Assembly: GCA_039961735.1 (NCBI GenBank)
Contig: JABRVX010000018.1
Location: 1 to 61,698, forward strand
Length of the DNA: 61,698 nt
Direction of reading: 5' to 3'
From: Fimbriimonadia bacterium
GTDB lineage: Bacteria > Armatimonadota > Fimbriimonadia > Fimbriimonadales > JABRVX01
Within the stretch, counting starts at the first letter, position 1. Every line of letters begins with the position of its first letter. The notes under the pieces are model-generated. The model was not told where the DNA came from and did not search any database. It saw nothing but the letters and a program-made list of their open reading frames with translations. The translations under genes and the position numbers were made by a program. Below, piece by piece: positions 2,429 to 29,349 of this stretch.

Positions 2429-4709
2429 ATGGAGAAGGCCGTCGGCCTAGACGTCACACGTTTGGGCGTCACCCTCGCCCCGCTGTGCGGGGGGGGGTAG
2501 CGACTGCCCAGACCGAACTCATCAAGGACTCGCCCTGGAACATGGCGGGCTATAACTACGAGCGCACGGCCTGCCGAGACTACGCGACCGTTTTACCCCC
2601 ACCCCCACCCGGTCAGCCGCCGCCGATGATCTTGCCGGGGAGCCCCGTGTGGACCTACACGACTCCCTCGGCTCAGCCCATCAACACCGGCGTGGTGTTC
2701 GGACCCGTCGAGAACCCCGGCCCAGGCGGGTCCCCGGTGAACCGGGTGTACTTCGGCTGTGACGACGGGTACGTTTACGCCCTGAACATCGACCGGGACA
2801 ACCCGGACCCTGGCCAGCGCGCCACCCTAGCATGGCGGTACTGGGTCGGATACCCTGTTCGGTCCACACCCTGCCTGGTTCAGTTCGAGACGGGCGGGTA
2901 CGGCCTAGCATTCGGAGCCGACAACGGTACCGTGTACTGCCTGCGGAGCAACGGGACGCTGAAGTGGAGCGTCAACATTGGCGCCGTCGTTCGAGGCAGC
3001 CCCTTCTACCGTCCGGGCCTTAGCATTGCAGAACCCGGGCCTGGCTCGGAGATCGTGCCCGCTGCGGTGATCGTGGGCAGTGTCACGTCGCAGGGACAGG
3101 GCAGGTTGGTCGCACTGAAAGTCAACGCGCCCGGGCCCACAGGGATCATCATGTATGAGAGGACCGACCTACCGGGCCTGGTCGGCTCTCCCTCCTACTA
3201 CCCCATCTGGGAGCAGGTCGGCGAAACCCAGGTCATCGTCGGCGGCTACGTGTTCGTGACCGACCTGGCAGGCAACCTCCGTCGGTTCTACGAGGATCGG
3301 TTCAGTTCGACCAGTTGCTTGAGCGCACCTTCACATGGCCCGATAGCCCACGGCCGCCCTGCATGGGCTGGCCCACGCTTGCCCCGGGCGAGACCATTGC
3401 CGATACCGTTGCGTACTTCGCCAGCGGGCCCAATCAGCAAGGCGGCGGGTACATCTACGCGGTGAAGCACACCGACGAGGGCCAACTGGTCTCGAAGTGG
3501 ACGCAGTTTGGCCAGCCCTATCGCATCGAGGATGCTTGGTGGACCCCCATGGACCCCAACGAGCCCACCCGCAGTGTCCGCATTGGCCACGTTTTCGCCG
3601 ATCCCTGCAAAGACATCGGCGGCCAGCTATACTTCGGCACGTGGATTGCTGGCACTCAGGATGGCTGGGGCATGTTCCTTAAGGTCAACGACCTCGGTTC
3701 GTTCGGGACGGCGACGGTGCTGCACGACTTCTGGGAGCAGCCCCGCGAGGTACGAGCTACCCCATGTGTCGGTGTAAACGGCGTCAACATGTGGATCGCC
3801 TTCGCGGACTCGGCGGGCTACCTGCATGTTCGCGGCCCTGCCGGTCCAGCGGTTCCACCGTTCCCTGTGAACATCGGCGCGGCAGCCGAGCAGTGGCTGC
3901 ACGAGAAGCTGCGCGAGGGGCTCAGCGGGGACTGCTACGGCTCGTACCATGACACGAACCGGAGCGGAGACGTAGTGTGGAGCCTGAACGGCGACGTGAC
4001 AGGCTGGTAGCGCCAGCTCTTTCTGAACGAGCGCAACATCTGGGTACCAGTAGTAGGGGGCGGTAGCAGGCCTGTTCGCATACGTGAACGGCTGGGGCGA
4101 CGTGCTGTGGAGTGCGGAGCGCTGGGACGCAAAGGCCGGGCTTGATCAACCACCTGTACGCGAACGACAGGAATGTCAGTTGGGAGGTGTACGGCGACGC
4201 GGCGTGGACGCACGCAGGGCCTCCTGCCATCAACAACAAGGTGGACGTTGCTTGGGGGGCGAGAGACGTGCGAGTCGCCCCCGACTATAGGCGCCAGGAC
4301 GTGTTCCTGACAACGGAGAACATCTCCTATCCGATACTGGGCGGTACGTACCACGAGGCGGGCCGATCGCACTGAACGAGCGTGGGGACTTGTTGTGGGG
4401 AGCGGGGGACAAGCTGTTTCTGAACACCACCGAGGTGACCTCCGTTCCAGGGCGCAGGGGTCTCCTAGGGGACTACGCCGGGATTGACGAGCACGGCCGA
4501 GTGCTGTGGGGAGACGGTGGCGGCTGGGAGCTGGAGCGCGTGTGGGTAGATGACATCTGCCTCACGATAGACGTATATGGCGACGATTGGCCGAAGTATG
4601 GGGCCACGGGCATCCAAATCGGCCCGAGCCGATTCCGGAACCGAGTTGCATGGCAGCCATGTGTGTGGGGCTTGTGGCGTTTTCGCTGCGATGGCGGTTC
4701 CGACGGTAG
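2429..4709 (+). pseudogene. broken secreted PQQ-type beta-propeller protein with PEP-CTERM tail
   Basis: Homologous-looking sequence continues across all three frames. ATG 2429 opens a leader that runs into a nine-G tract, then VATAQTELI continues in another frame. Residues from about 2700 to 3290 carry PQQ/propeller repeats (VYFGCDDGYVYAL, FGADNGTVYCL...LKW). The frame jumps near 3300, a TAG interrupts at 4008-4010, and further jumps fall near 4011-4065, 4135, 4350 and 4610. The second half repeats a module of the form NxxGDVLW...LFLN (examples near 3960, 4090, 4375 and 4490). The end, 4632-4709, reads IPEPS, a hydrophobic stretch, then RWRFRR and TAG: a PEP-CTERM sorting signal recognised by exosortase. 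About six lesions make this a decayed gene or an assembly with indel errors. Confidence 0.75.
2489..2497 (+). repeat. nine-G homopolymer within the signal-peptide region
   Basis: A run of nine G lies about 20 codons after the ATG at 2429 and places a TAG directly after it. Seven or ten G would restore the frame to the propeller domain. It could be a slippage site (phase variation) or a sequencing error. Confidence 0.6.
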
Positions 4710-19559: not shown

Positions 19560-20012
19560 ATGGACCGTGCGCTCTTAGTGATGCAGTTCGACCAGATTCT
19601 GGAAGGCTGGGACATCCCGACCCCGGCAGGCGTGTTGCGAGTGCGTGAGGATAGTCGGGCGGCGGTACCGGCGGGAGCAGCCTACTCGATTCTGACGAAC
19701 CTCGCGCACACCGTTCTGTGGCAGGACTTCTGGCTGCAGAAGCTCGCAGGCGGACGACGGAAGGCGGGCCCGCCGGAATGGAACAACGACTTTCGTGTGC
19801 CGGACCCGAGCGAGTGGCACGCGCTGAAGAAACGATTGCTCGATGGGCTGCAGGAGGCTCGGCGTATCGCTGCCAGTGAACCCTTCGACCACAAGCTGGT
19901 TTCGGATCAGGAAGCCGTCGAAACGCTGATCCGCATCCTTATCCACGTCTCGTACCACCTCGGCCAGATGAACCTGCTGAGACGAATGGCTTCATCGGCC
20001 AAGCGTGCCTGA
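19560..20012 (+). CDS. DinB-fold protein
   Basis: The 150-residue four-helix protein has the DinB/YfiT metal-site pattern: a His in the second helix region (LTNLAHTVLWQDFW) and the C-terminal HVSYHLGQMNLLRRM. The family includes metal-dependent thiol transferases and many stress-related proteins of unknown substrate. Length is normal. Confidence 0.85.
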   Translation: MDRALLVMQFDQILEGWDIPTPAGVLRVREDSRAAVPAGAAYSILTNLAHTVLWQDFWLQKLAGGRRKAGPPEWNNDFRVPDPSEWHALKKRLLDGLQEARRIAASEPFDHKLVSDQEAVETLIRILIHVSYHLGQMNLLRRMASSAKRA

Positions 20013-20125
20013 AGAGCCCCGACACGATCGGCAGCTATTTCGTCCAGGAAATCCGATGCGCCGGCGAGAAGCCTTGAGGGGCGTTCGATTCGACGCAGAC
20101 AGGACGCCCTGGAGGATCGCTGCGG

Positions 20126-22567
20126 GTGGGCCGAGTTGGAGTGCTGTTAATCGTTTTTTGGGTGATGCAGATCGTGGCGCAGGTGCTGTTCAAGTGGGGC
20201 AGCCTTTCGGACTCTCGTTGGGTGTGGGGGTTCTGGGGCGGGAACGCCCTCGGCCTGTCCAGCATATGGCTGTTGATGCTGGTGTACCGCGTGATCAACC
20301 CCAACGTCGCGCTAGGCGTCGCTGCGGGTGGTGCGTTCCTGCTTAGTCGGATTGCCATCGCCGTGGCGTTTCGTTCCAAGGTGGCTCCCGTGCAGTGGCT
20401 GGGAATCGCGACGATGGTGGCGGGCATGCTGCTGCTCGCGACGGGAGGAATGGCTCAACGCGGCGAACCCGATATGGCCGGCAAACCCGAGGCTGCAACC
20501 TCCCAACGACTGGACCGACAACCCGATGAATGCGAGCCCTCGGTTGCCGGACACGGACAGCACGAGGCGAGCACGATGAAGCCTGCATCTATACCCCCGA
20601 TACCGACCTCTGAAGACATGGCCGAGAGCCGTGCCCTGTACGAGCAGTTTTTCACCGACCCCTCGAAGCTCCCTATCACCTATCTGTTCGACGGAAAGCA
20701 GCAGAGGGGCATCCCGAGGGACTGGCAGCCAGTGACCCAGACTCGACTGCTGGACGCGAACATGGTAGAGCTGGTGTGGACGGGCCGTGCCCCACAGACT
20801 GGACTGGAAATCCGGATCGAGTGCCTGGTCTACAGGGATTATCCCGTGCTGGAATGGGTCGCCTGGTTCGCCAACCGTGGCACCACACCCACCCCGCTTC
20901 TAAGTGACATCGAAGCGCTCGATGCGACTCTGGTAGGTTCGGCACCAGTCCTACACCACTACAGAGGCGACTTCTGGGACGAGCATGGCTATGAGCCTCA
21001 AGAGGCGGTCTTGGCTCCGGGAACGAAGGTTCATCTCGCTCCCAACGGCGGACGCCCTTGCGATGGGTGGTTCCCCTACTTCCGCATTCTCTTCGAAGGT
21101 CGCGGCCTAACCTGGGCGCTCGGATGGCCTGGGCAGTGGTCGCTGACGGTCGAGGGCGCGAGCGATGGAGTGCACGTGAAGGCCGGGCAGGAGAAGACAC
21201 ACCTCCGACTCGACCCCGGCGAGAGCATCCGGACGCCACGCATGACGGTGTTGGCATGGAAGGGTGACGAAACGCGTGCGATCAACCTGTGGCGGCGGTG
21301 GTACCTCGCGCACCTACTGCCGCGACCGAACGGACGGCCCCTGCAGCCGCTCATTGCTCTGGCAGCCACGGATGAGGGCGAGGAGTTCACAGCCGCGACG
21401 GAAGAGAACCAACTGCGCTACATGGCCAAGTTCCAGGAACATGGGATCCCTTTCGATGTGTGGTGGATTGATGCGGGGTGGTATCCCTGCTCGGACAACG
21501 AGGAACGGCGGCGGTGGCCGATCACGGGGAACTGGTACCCAGATCCCGAGCGGTTTCCCAACGGGATGAAAGCTATCTCCGAGGCGGCAGAGAGTGCCGG
21601 TGCGAAGCTGTTGGTGTGGTTCGAGCCGGAACGCGTGCGGGCCGGCACGATGTTCGAGCGCGATCATCCCGACTGGCTGCTGCGAGCCAAGGAGAGCGAC
21701 AATGCGCTGTTCAATCTCGGCAACCCCGACTGCAGGCAGTGGCTGACCGACCACGTGTGTAAGCTCATCCGTGACAACGGCATACGCATCTATCGGCAGG
21801 ACCACAACTTCTCGCCTTTGCAGCACTGGCGAGAAAACGAGACAGAAGGTCGGCAGGGGATGAACGAGAACCTGTACGTGCAGGGGTACCTGCGCTATTG
21901 GGACGACCTGATCGAGCACAATCCGGGGCTGTGGATCGACTCCTGTGCGAGTGGTGGGAGGCGCAACGACCTCGAGACTATGCGGCGCTCTGTTCCGCTG
22001 CACTACAGCGACTATGGATATGGCGACCACCCCGTCAAGCTGGCATTCCAGCGGACGCTGTACGAGTGGATTCCGTACTTCAAGGAGTTCACACTGTCAT
22101 GGGACCTGACGGGTGGCTCGCGCTTCGATGCCTCGGTGGATCCGTTCGCCTACTATACTGCAATGGCACCCATGCTGTTCGTGACACTGGACATCCGACG
22201 GGACGACTACGACTTCGAGCTATCTCGCAAACTGATCGCGATCTGGCGCAACGCGTCACAGTTGTTACTGTTTGGCGACTACTATCCGCTCACGCCCTAT
22301 CATCGTGATGCCACGCAATGGGTGGTGCGCCAGTTCGACGAGCCGACAACCGGACGAGGGGTGATCCAGGCGGTACGTTTGCCAAAGAACTCGGAGGAGA
22401 CCTTCGTGGCTAGGCCGAAAGGGGTAGCGCCCGAGGCTCGATACATCTTCGAGAGCAGTGACAATGGTGAGACCGTAGAGGTTACCGGGGAGAAGCTGCA
22501 GTCGGAGGGTTTCCCTATCAAGCTCCCACAGCGCGGCGCGGTTCTGTGGTTCTACCGCAAACTGTGA
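20126..22567 (+). CDS. SMR-like membrane segment fused in frame to GH36 alpha-galactosidase
   Basis: GTG 20126 has GGAGG 10 nt upstream. Residues 1-112 form four transmembrane helices like a small multidrug/DMT transporter (VMQIVAQVLFKWG, SSIWLLMLVYRVI, GGAFLLSRIAIAVAF, LGIATMVAGMLLLATGG). A 40-residue hydrophilic linker follows. From about residue 151 (ATG 20576, in frame) the rest is a complete GH36-type alpha-galactosidase: DVWWIDAGWYP, an IYRQDHN segment whose Asp is the expected nucleophile, and CASGGRRNDLETMRR with the acid/base Asp. The enzyme would cleave alpha-galactosides. A fused chain would put the hydrolase in the cytoplasm if the four helices behave as in SMR proteins. Alternatively two genes have lost the stop between them. 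Confidence 0.8.
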   Translation: MGRVGVLLIVFWVMQIVAQVLFKWGSLSDSRWVWGFWGGNALGLSSIWLLMLVYRVINPNVALGVAAGGAFLLSRIAIAVAFRSKVAPVQWLGIATMVAGMLLLATGGMAQRGEPDMAGKPEAATSQRLDRQPDECEPSVAGHGQHEASTMKPASIPPIPTSEDMAESRALYEQFFTDPSKLPITYLFDGKQQRGIPRDWQPVTQTRLLDANMVELVWTGRAPQTGLEIRIECLVYRDYPVLEWVAWFANRGTTPTPLLSDIEALDATLVGSAPVLHHYRGDFWDEHGYEPQEAVLAPGTKVHLAPNGGRPCDGWFPYFRILFEGRGLTWALGWPGQWSLTVEGASDGVHVKAGQEKTHLRLDPGESIRTPRMTVLAWKGDETRAINLWRRWYLAHLLPRPNGRPLQPLIALAATDEGEEFTAATEENQLRYMAKFQEHGIPFDVWWIDAGWYPCSDNEERRRWPITGNWYPDPERFPNGMKAISEAAESAGAKLLVWFEPERVRAGTMFERDHPDWLLRAKESDNALFNLGNPDCRQWLTDHVCKLIRDNGIRIYRQDHNFSPLQHWRENETEGRQGMNENLYVQGYLRYWDDLIEHNPGLWIDSCASGGRRNDLETMRRSVPLHYSDYGYGDHPVKLAFQRTLYEWIPYFKEFTLSWDLTGGSRFDASVDPFAYYTAMAPMLFVTLDIRRDDYDFELSRKLIAIWRNASQLLLFGDYYPLTPYHRDATQWVVRQFDEPTTGRGVIQAVRLPKNSEETFVARPKGVAPEARYIFESSDNGETVEVTGEKLQSEGFPIKLPQRGAVLWFYRKL

Positions 22568-24011: not shown

Positions 24012-24919
24012 ATGTCCATACGACCGGTCAAGAGGTTCGGCAGAGCCAAGCCGACACTCGAGGGTGCGGGAGTGCACCTGCACCGTGCATTCGGATTCGG
24101 TGGTACATCCGATTTCGATCCGTTTCTGCTGCTCGACGACTTCCGCAGCGACGACCCGGAGCAGTACTTACCAGGGTTTCCGTGGCACCCACACCGGGGC
24201 ATCGAGACCATCACTTATGTGCTTGCAGGAACCGTAGAGCACGGCGACAGCATGGGGCACAGCGGTACAGTCGCGGCCGGAGACGTACAGTGGATGACGG
24301 CGGGCCGCGGAATCCTGCATCAGGAAATGCCTAAGGGCGACGCTTCTGGCCGTATGCACGGGTTCCAACTCTGGGCCAACCTGCCGGCGGCGCTGAAAAT
24401 GACTGCACCGCGATACCAGGAGGTGAAGGCCGACGAGATCCCGGAAGAGACCGACGACGACGGCACGCGTGCGCGCATCGTGTGCGGTTCCTTCTGGGGC
24501 AAGCAGGGGCCGGTCGAGGGGATCGCGGCAGACCCCGTGTATGTGGACATTTCAGTGCCGCCCGGATTGGAGAAAACGATTCGCGTCGAGATGGGACGTA
24601 ACGCATTCGCCTACGTCTTCGAAGGGTCCGGGAAGTTCTGCAACGCGTCGAACCGCTTTCTGTGCCCACTGAGTCGGTCGGATGGGCTGACACTTCGCCA
24701 CCGACCGAAGCAGACAATCGGTCACTCGTCTTGTTCGATAGCGGGGACGAGGTACGGGTTCGGGCCGGCGAAGAGGGGATTCGGTTCCTGCTAGTGAGTG
24801 GTGAGCCGCTGAAGGAGCCGGTAGCGTGGTACGGCCCTATCGTTATGAACACTCAGGAACAACTGCGCCAAGCGTACCGCGAGCTTCAGGACGGTACGTT
24901 CTTGGAACCCAGTACGTAG
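24012..24919 (+). pseudogene. pirin family protein, interrupted by a frameshift
   Basis: The first frame codes a clear pirin cupin: FDPFLLLDDF, WHPHRGIETITYVLAG, EHGDSMGH, and VQWMTAGRGILHQEMP, including the metal-binding His pair and Glu. From about 24655 this frame loses similarity. The frame starting near 24662 continues with NRSLVLFDSGDEVRV and FLLVSGEPLKEPVAWYGPIVMN, the expected C-terminal pirin end. One indel near 24655-24665 therefore splits the gene. GGGGGG precedes the ATG. Pirins act as quercetinase-like oxidases or regulatory partners. Confidence 0.82.
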
Positions 24920-27124: not shown

Positions 27125-29349
27125 GTGATACTCATGGCTCTCCTACCCTTCTGGCTGATGTCTGCGTGCGCGTCGTCCGAAGCTCAGGTGCCTATCCTAG
27201 ACCAAGTGCTAGAAGCTCGTACCGACCTATGGGGCGAGGCCGCAATCCGACAGCCGGACGGTCCATCGTATCGCTTCTTTGCCGATCTCCTCCCCCCGCT
27301 CCGCTACGTGGATGCGGAGTTCGGTCGCTATCCGATCGTCGTAGGCTCTCTTCACGGGCAACAGAAGCAGCGTTTGGCGAGTGATGGCTCAGGGGTCAAT
27401 CTATGGGCCAACCGCCCTAACTGGCACGACGCAAACCTTCACCCCATGGAAGTCTGGGTCGGCGATCCGCCCGAGCGATTCGGCGCCGACCTGGACCGGT
27501 GGGTTGGACCGCATCTAGCGGACGGCTGGATGCCGATCTATCGCTGGCAGTATCGCGTGGGTGCAAGTAAGTACCACCTCGAAGCATTTGCGGCTCCCAG
27601 ACCGGTCGGAGGGGCCGAAGCTGCTTGTGTCCAAATACGTCTCGTCTCTGGGAGTTCGGGCAGGGCTACTCTCAACTTTCCCAGTCTGTCGCTGGCGGCG
27701 GCGAGCCAACAGCTGGCAGAGCCTTCGGGGGGCGTGCGAGTCGTACACGACGGGTCCTGGAAGTGGAACACCGCAGCCGCGCAGTTAACTGCGCAGCTGA
27801 ACAAGGGTGCGGCGGCCCGTTGTCTCTTCTTCGGAGCCGGAGAATCTCCTCATCTTGGCCCAGAAAGGAGCCCCGACTATCACCGTGATCTAGCAGACGC
27901 GCAGCGCTTCTGGGAGGCACAATTGAAGCGTTGTGTGCAGATAGAGACGCCGGACGCCGTGGTGAATCGTGCGTGGCGGACGTCTCTAGTCACACTACTA
28001 ACACTACTGCACGGCGATACGATGATGTACAGTGCACTAAACCAATATGCCTGTACGTTCGAGGCAGAATGTGGAGACGCAGTTTTTGCTCTGGGGTTGT
28101 ATGGAGTTCCTTCGGCAACGCGGTATGCCATTCCCATGCTGGAACGACCTTTGCAGCATGGTGTGGAAGACCACGACCGTGCCTACAAGATCCGTCTCAT
28201 GCACGGCCTCTACCGGCTAACGCGCGACGACGGATTTCTGCGAGAAACTCGTCAACACTGGCAGAGGTCTGCCGACGAGTTAGTCGCTCGAGTAGAGCCG
28301 GAGACGGGGCTGCTACCGAAGTCCGGATATTGTGGCGATATCGTGACTCCCGTTAACAGCCTCAACTCCAACTGCGCTGCGTGGAGGGCGCTGAGAGATC
28401 TGGGTGCTTGCCTGCAAGGCGGAGTAGACCAGCCCTTGGCCGAGAAGTATGCGACGGCAGCCGACAAGCTGAGGAGCGCGATTCTAGATGCCGTAGATAG
28501 AAGCGCGGACCGAACCAGTGATCCGCCGTTCATCCCGATGGCGCTGTTCGGATTCGAGAAACGCGCTGTTCCCATCACATCTACGGGTCTGAGTGCCTAT
28601 TGGAACCTCATCGCCCCTATACGCTCGAGTCTGGCGCTCTGCTGTCACGACCGGAGTATAACGAGTGGATCATCCGCCATGTGCGGGAACAAGGCGGCCT
28701 GTGTATGGGCCGGCTGCGATTCGATGCCAACGTCGCGTGGTTCGCGAATACGGATGCCCTCAACGATCTTTATGGCTTGCGGTACGTGCTGGAAGTTCTG
28801 CGTCGGGACGAGCCAAACCTCGCGGCGGTCTCCCTCTACGGAAAGCTCGCTCAAACGCTGACACGTGACACGTTCTACGGCGCCGAGGGCACGGGCTTGC
28901 GACCGCTCGATAACCACGGCCGACCGACGTACTTGCCGCCGAACTCCTCCTCCACTGGCTACTTCCTCACCATGCTGCGGTATATGTTGATACAGGATTG
29001 GGACTTGAACGACGACGGGGTACCTGAGACCCTCCGTCTGGGATTCGCGGTGCCGCGGCACTGGATGCGTGACGGGCAGGTGGTAAGTGTAAAGAATGCA
29101 CCCACGGCCTTCGGGCTTGTGTCGTATCGCATCGAGTCGCAGATATCTCAGGGCAAGCTCATAGCCGACATCTCCCCCGCACCCAGAAGGCCATATAGGC
29201 TGCTCTTGCGGTTTCGTCTCCCCGATGGGTATCGGGCGGTCCGTGCCACAGCGATCGGTCAGACGCTGGCGATCGACGACACGGGTGCAGTGGACTTAAC
29301 GGGGCTCCGAGCACCGCTCCGGGTCGTCTGCGAGGTTGCCGGCCACTAA
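27125..29349 (+). pseudogene. secreted (alpha/alpha)6 glycosidase-like protein, split by a frameshift
   Basis: The first frame (GTG 27125) has a signal-like N-terminus (ALLPFWLMSACASSEAQ) with a possible lipobox. An N-terminal beta-sandwich follows and then a six-hairpin-like region (WRTSLVTLLTLLHGDTMMY, FEAECGDAVFALGLYG, HDRAYKIRLMHGLYRLT). Near 28605-28625 similarity moves to another frame: ..AYWNLI in the first, PYTLESGALLSRPEYNEW in the second, which continues to a stop at 29347-29349 with WFANTDALNDLYGLRY and GYFLTMLRYML. The whole of about 740 residues looks like one glycoside-hydrolase-like protein broken by a single indel. The exact family is not recognised. Confidence 0.7.

Follow-up and report, generated by a model that had tools for sequence, protein, structure and literature searches.

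An SMR-like membrane protein and a GH36-type glycosidase joined in one open reading frame of a Fimbriimonadia bacterium, probably a run-on of two neighbouring genes

The open reading frame and its two halves

In this study, we analysed a stretch of 61,698 nucleotides from a Fimbriimonadia bacterium (contig JABRVX010000018.1; hereafter the window), in which an SMR/EmrE-like membrane segment and a GH36-type enzyme lie in a single frame on the forward strand (20126-22567). The frame runs for 813 codons without a stop from a GTG start, the nearest upstream in-frame stop being at 20075-20077, so that the four-helix segment described in frame with GH36 by an earlier sequence-only reading was borne out. 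The ribosome-binding site which that reading had assigned to the four-helix segment was found as GGAGG (20111-20115, forward strand), 10 nt 5' of GTG 20126. Moreover, the ATG at 20576, proposed there as a possible start of the GH36 enzyme itself, has a GAGG ribosome-binding site 8 nt upstream (20564-20567, forward strand), and the starts of relatives align with it. The upstream neighbour on the same strand (19560-20012) encodes a weak DinB/mycothiol-transferase-like protein (PF12867, 4.9e-5, just under the cut-off).

The membrane half is an SMR/EmrE-like four-helix protein with its core in residues 1-111 (20126-20458, forward strand), as indicated by stand-alone relatives, AlphaFold and Foldseek. 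AlphaFold predicted a confident four-helix bundle followed by a low-confidence tail, with helices at residues 2-26, 32-56, 59-81 and 88-111 and block pLDDT values of 89-96 up to residue 100. The top Foldseek matches were EmrE and Gdx-Clo (probability 1.00, E-values 0.006 and up), with a target-normalised TM-score to EmrE of 0.81 and no match passing an E-value of 0.001. Profile searches gave little: the segment of the window protein itself has no Pfam match, the best PF00893 match among the members of its family is below the cut-off (E 0.0025), and the NCBIfam MdtJ model reached only E 0.016 against the segment; when searched across the order, the MdtJ model found other SMR-like proteins. Among 291 genomes of the phylum the family occurs in 18, source genome included. 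The 17 other genomes contain 18 relatives, a single one in each apart from a genome with a tandem pair, most of them about 40-55% identical to the window segment. All 18 are separate genes, and in 15 of the 16 that were aligned the protein is 108-114 residues long with a stop shortly past the fourth helix, the remaining one carrying an extra tail of about 40 residues.

The second half (residues 151-813; 20576-22567, forward strand) is a GH36-type glycosidase of 663 amino acids, as judged from PF02065, PDB alignments and the starts of its relatives. The coding part (20576-22564) matched the Melibiase family PF02065 at 1.7e-21 (77.1 bits, against a cut-off of 27) and solved GH36 alpha-galactosidases at 5e-20, the best PDB match scoring 74 bits. 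In GH36 enzymes one aspartate serves as the nucleophile and another as the acid/base. Alignment to the GH36 chains 8k1a and 3mi6 places the nucleophile in YRQDHN and the acid/base in HYSDYG of the window enzyme; these correspond to IKWDMN and WTSDDT, respectively, in the GH36 structures (AgaA/AgaB, Lactobacillus GH36), with which the window enzyme shares the catalytic TIM barrel. It is, however, remote from all PDB GH36 enzymes and has a shorter N-terminal part. The NCBIfam beta-L-arabinopyranosidase model was matched only far below its cut-off. The alpha-galactosidase specificity named in the sequence-only reading is thus putative, although the family match is well above the cut-off and alpha-galactosidases are the closest solved relatives. 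No signal peptide was seen in the 663-residue protein, and the enzyme is thus probably cytoplasmic.

Relatives of the GH36 enzyme and the gene neighbourhood

The nearest GH36 relatives (49-62% identity) come from Latescibacterota, Chloroflexi, Planctomycetota and other phyla, with two Armatimonadetes records, and their starts fall on or close to residue 1 of the 663-residue protein. At nine GH36 loci an ATG or GTG aligns exactly to ATG 20576, with a match from residue 1, and the stop that precedes it in the same frame lies 1-41 codons away. Across 105 GH36 loci for which an upstream stop was defined, at least two of which are one gene counted twice, there was no case of two or more hydrophobic windows or helices in the in-frame upstream extension. 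Where one upstream hydrophobic window was present, it was mostly a signal-peptide-like segment, often ahead of an NPCBM-like domain (a label given by reading the sequence and not by profile search). The upstream in-frame extensions of other GH36 genes, which reach 375 codons, were considered as multi-helix proteins and rejected, since they resemble open frames that arose by chance, signal peptides or NPCBM-like domains. In a Phycisphaerae GH36 relative (L049:2683-3001) the frame stays open for 106 codons upstream and includes one hydrophobic stretch, another possible run-on or anchor.

Genes for the two halves are also neighbours elsewhere. Two genera of the phylum, represented by genomes G222 and G225 (loci L173 and L172, respectively), have directly adjacent transporter and GH36 genes, the transporter gene lying between two GH36 genes and all of them on the same strand. 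In G225 the transporter gene's TGA and the GTG of the GH36 gene that follows share bases (GTGA), the two genes being in different frames; in G222 the genes are likewise separate and in different frames. The adjacent GH36 genes of these two genomes encode proteins only about 40% identical to the window enzyme with signal-peptide-like N-termini, so that they are not, on this comparison, strict orthologues of the window gene. In a third genome (G086) about 2.3 kb separates a GH36 gene from a pair of transporter genes on the same strand, and on a Lentisphaerae contig (L062) a transporter gene pair, both members ending in a stop of their own, stands directly 5' of an NPCBM-like-GH36 gene. In most of the remaining genomes of the 17, other neighbours stand beside the transporter. 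Since transporter and GH36 genes are neighbours in other lineages, the gene pair is, as gene order indicates, older than the fusion, and its linkage is loose.

The linker and the origin of the shared frame

Between the two halves lies a hydrophilic linker of 39 codons without a stop (20459-20575, forward strand), a probable former intergenic stretch or 3' tail in view of its codon score, its pLDDT and its absence from relatives. Its codon score is 0.07 bits per codon, compared with 0.25 +/- 0.13 in the genes of the window, about 0.32 in the helices and 0.29 in GH36, which ranks it at the 8th percentile among stretches of 39 codons taken from window genes. AlphaFold predicted it to be disordered (pLDDT 54-60), and the sequence is absent from the relatives of the membrane segment. 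The linker thus behaves like former intergenic DNA. In sequence of the same composition, the chance that a 39-codon stretch stays open is 0.34, falling to about 0.11 when it must also keep the right frame. An open linker is therefore unremarkable, and a run-on, once the stop had been lost, would need no special cause.

As to where the stop may have been, the conserved Gly-Met corresponds to residues 100-101 of the window protein, and the relatives stop 6 to 12 residues later, with one exception. Their commonest stop position aligns with window codon 111, a CAA that is one transition from TAA. This is a hint, not proof, that codon 111 was the site of the lost stop, because codons 107, 108 and 114 are likewise one step from a stop. 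The sequence-only reading had pointed to residues 112 to 151 as the interval in which orthologues might show a stop; the relatives are all separate genes, 15 of the 16 aligned being of 108-114 residues.

It seems very probable that two neighbouring genes, one for an SMR/DMT-type transporter and one for GH36, have come to lie in one frame through the absence of the first gene's stop. The relatives of both halves are separate and the coding signal of the linker is weak, two observations that also support the earlier suggestion of a stop codon lost between two genes; the explanation further draws on the shared neighbourhood in a few other lineages and on the separate ribosome sites. The genomes compared belong to the same order and wider groups, none to the source's own family, so that close relatives with two separate genes, which together with raw reads showing a missing base had been named as the observation that would speak against a fused protein, have a counterpart only in other families of the phylum. 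Under this explanation the transporter and GH36 genes would be neighbours that are probably co-transcribed, in the ancestral order transporter gene, stop, GH36, and the stop would have been lost recently in the source lineage. GH36 would still be made mainly as a soluble cytoplasmic enzyme of 663 amino acids from ATG 20576. Provided that the assembly is correct, some of the 813-residue fused product must also be made by ribosomes starting at 20126; its membrane half would be expected to fold, with GH36 trailing from it on a disordered linker. The case resembles stop-loss gene fusions in that adjacent genes on the same strand and in frame form one open frame, and it is known from one assembled genome; in the literature on such fusions we found nothing bearing directly on it. 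As a fusion it matters little, and an annotation pipeline would mistake it for a membrane-bound GH36.

Within the run-on explanation, we give about two thirds to a real loss of the stop and one third to a base error in the assembly. The latter, a special case of the run-on in which the stop exists in the organism and is hidden because a base near 20450-20575 was substituted, dropped or added, is on the whole rather unlikely, but it has several points in its favour. Three other apparent frameshifts occur in the window, near 3270, 24620 and 28600, each fitting a missing base, and such broken frames nearby, whether they belong to the assembly or to the genome, make a base error in the linker a fair rival. 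The one near 24620 is firm: the pirin gene (24012-24916) has an apparent frameshift at that point, with the Pirin domain in one frame and Pirin_C in the next (Pfam 8.8e-21). Moreover, read in the +1 frame, the linker closes with a TGA overlapping ATG 20576 (ATGA), like the GTGA of G225, and when codon scores were used as a frameshift test the +1 frame scored as well as the frame in use (0.05 and 0.07 bits per codon, respectively). However, the other frameshifts of the window could be real pseudogenes, a frame error would lengthen the tail of the transporter beyond that of every aligned relative except one, and, with both halves intact in one shared frame, an error need not be invoked.

A real, selected fusion, that is, a membrane-tethered GH36 enzyme by which a sugar or glycoside is perhaps transported and hydrolysed in a coupled way, appears improbable to us. 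The frame is open, the conserved positions are intact in both halves, and a functional link is plausible since the genes are neighbours in other lineages. However, the fusion occurs in one genome only (0/105 GH36 loci, with the double counting mentioned above, and 0/18 transporter relatives are fused), the linker is not gene-like, and GH36 keeps an independent start and ribosome site. The charge bias of the membrane domain, furthermore, is near balanced, with no clear bias that would hold the C-terminus, and with it the enzyme, to one side. The membrane-tethered alpha-galactosidase put forward in the sequence-only reading is thus not supported, given that none of the relatives is fused, that the charge bias is not clear, and that GH36 keeps its start with its ribosome site. 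A search of the literature on SMR-glycosidase fusions and membrane-anchored GH36 enzymes returned nothing relevant. We would give slightly less credence still to a real fusion confined to a single lineage, in which a transporter of SMR fold, from a subfamily with Gln at the position of the proton-coupling Glu, tethered to GH36, would move and cut a sugar or glycoside within one polypeptide, and in which the transporter family may serve glycoside transport beside GH36 genes in several phyla. The idea that the membrane segment is no gene but a spurious upstream extension, for which one might cite its GTG start codon and its want of a Pfam match of its own, can be set aside with near certainty, as it is ruled out by a conserved family with relatives of about 40-55% identity and invariant positions in 17 other genomes and by the SMR-like fold predicted for the segment.

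The SMR-fold family and the SMR transporters

The family of the membrane half resembles SMR proteins (EmrE/Gdx-Clo, DMT superfamily) in its length of about 108 residues, within the 105-115 taken as the criterion, and in its four predicted helices. It is like dual-topology SMR proteins in its near-balanced loop charges, and like SMR in occasional tandem gene pairs, which were seen in L062 and L212. The Pfam matches of the family, on the other hand, are weak or absent, with the PF00893 cut-off not reached. A passage of a report on EmrE (PMC11133458) describes its membrane-embedded Glu14 as coupling proton and substrate and as needed for proton coupling. The family differs from EmrE at this very position, where an invariant Gln (Gln15) stands in all 17 aligned members. 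The best PDB chain for the family profile is 8uoz_B, of the WT/E14Q EmrE heterodimer, which has Q at the Glu14 position. Judged by its alignment and predicted fold, the family is of the SMR plan, yet no canonical SMR antiporter. A by-product of this analysis is therefore an SMR-fold family with Gln at the EmrE Glu14 position that stands beside GH36 genes in two phyla, a possible sugar-linked transporter and as such a candidate lead.

Elsewhere in the window, two further genes (2485-4010 and 27125-29349) show an apparent one-step change of coding frame, near 3270 and 28600 respectively, whose direction matches that of the pirin gene; these would be assembly errors or pseudogenes.
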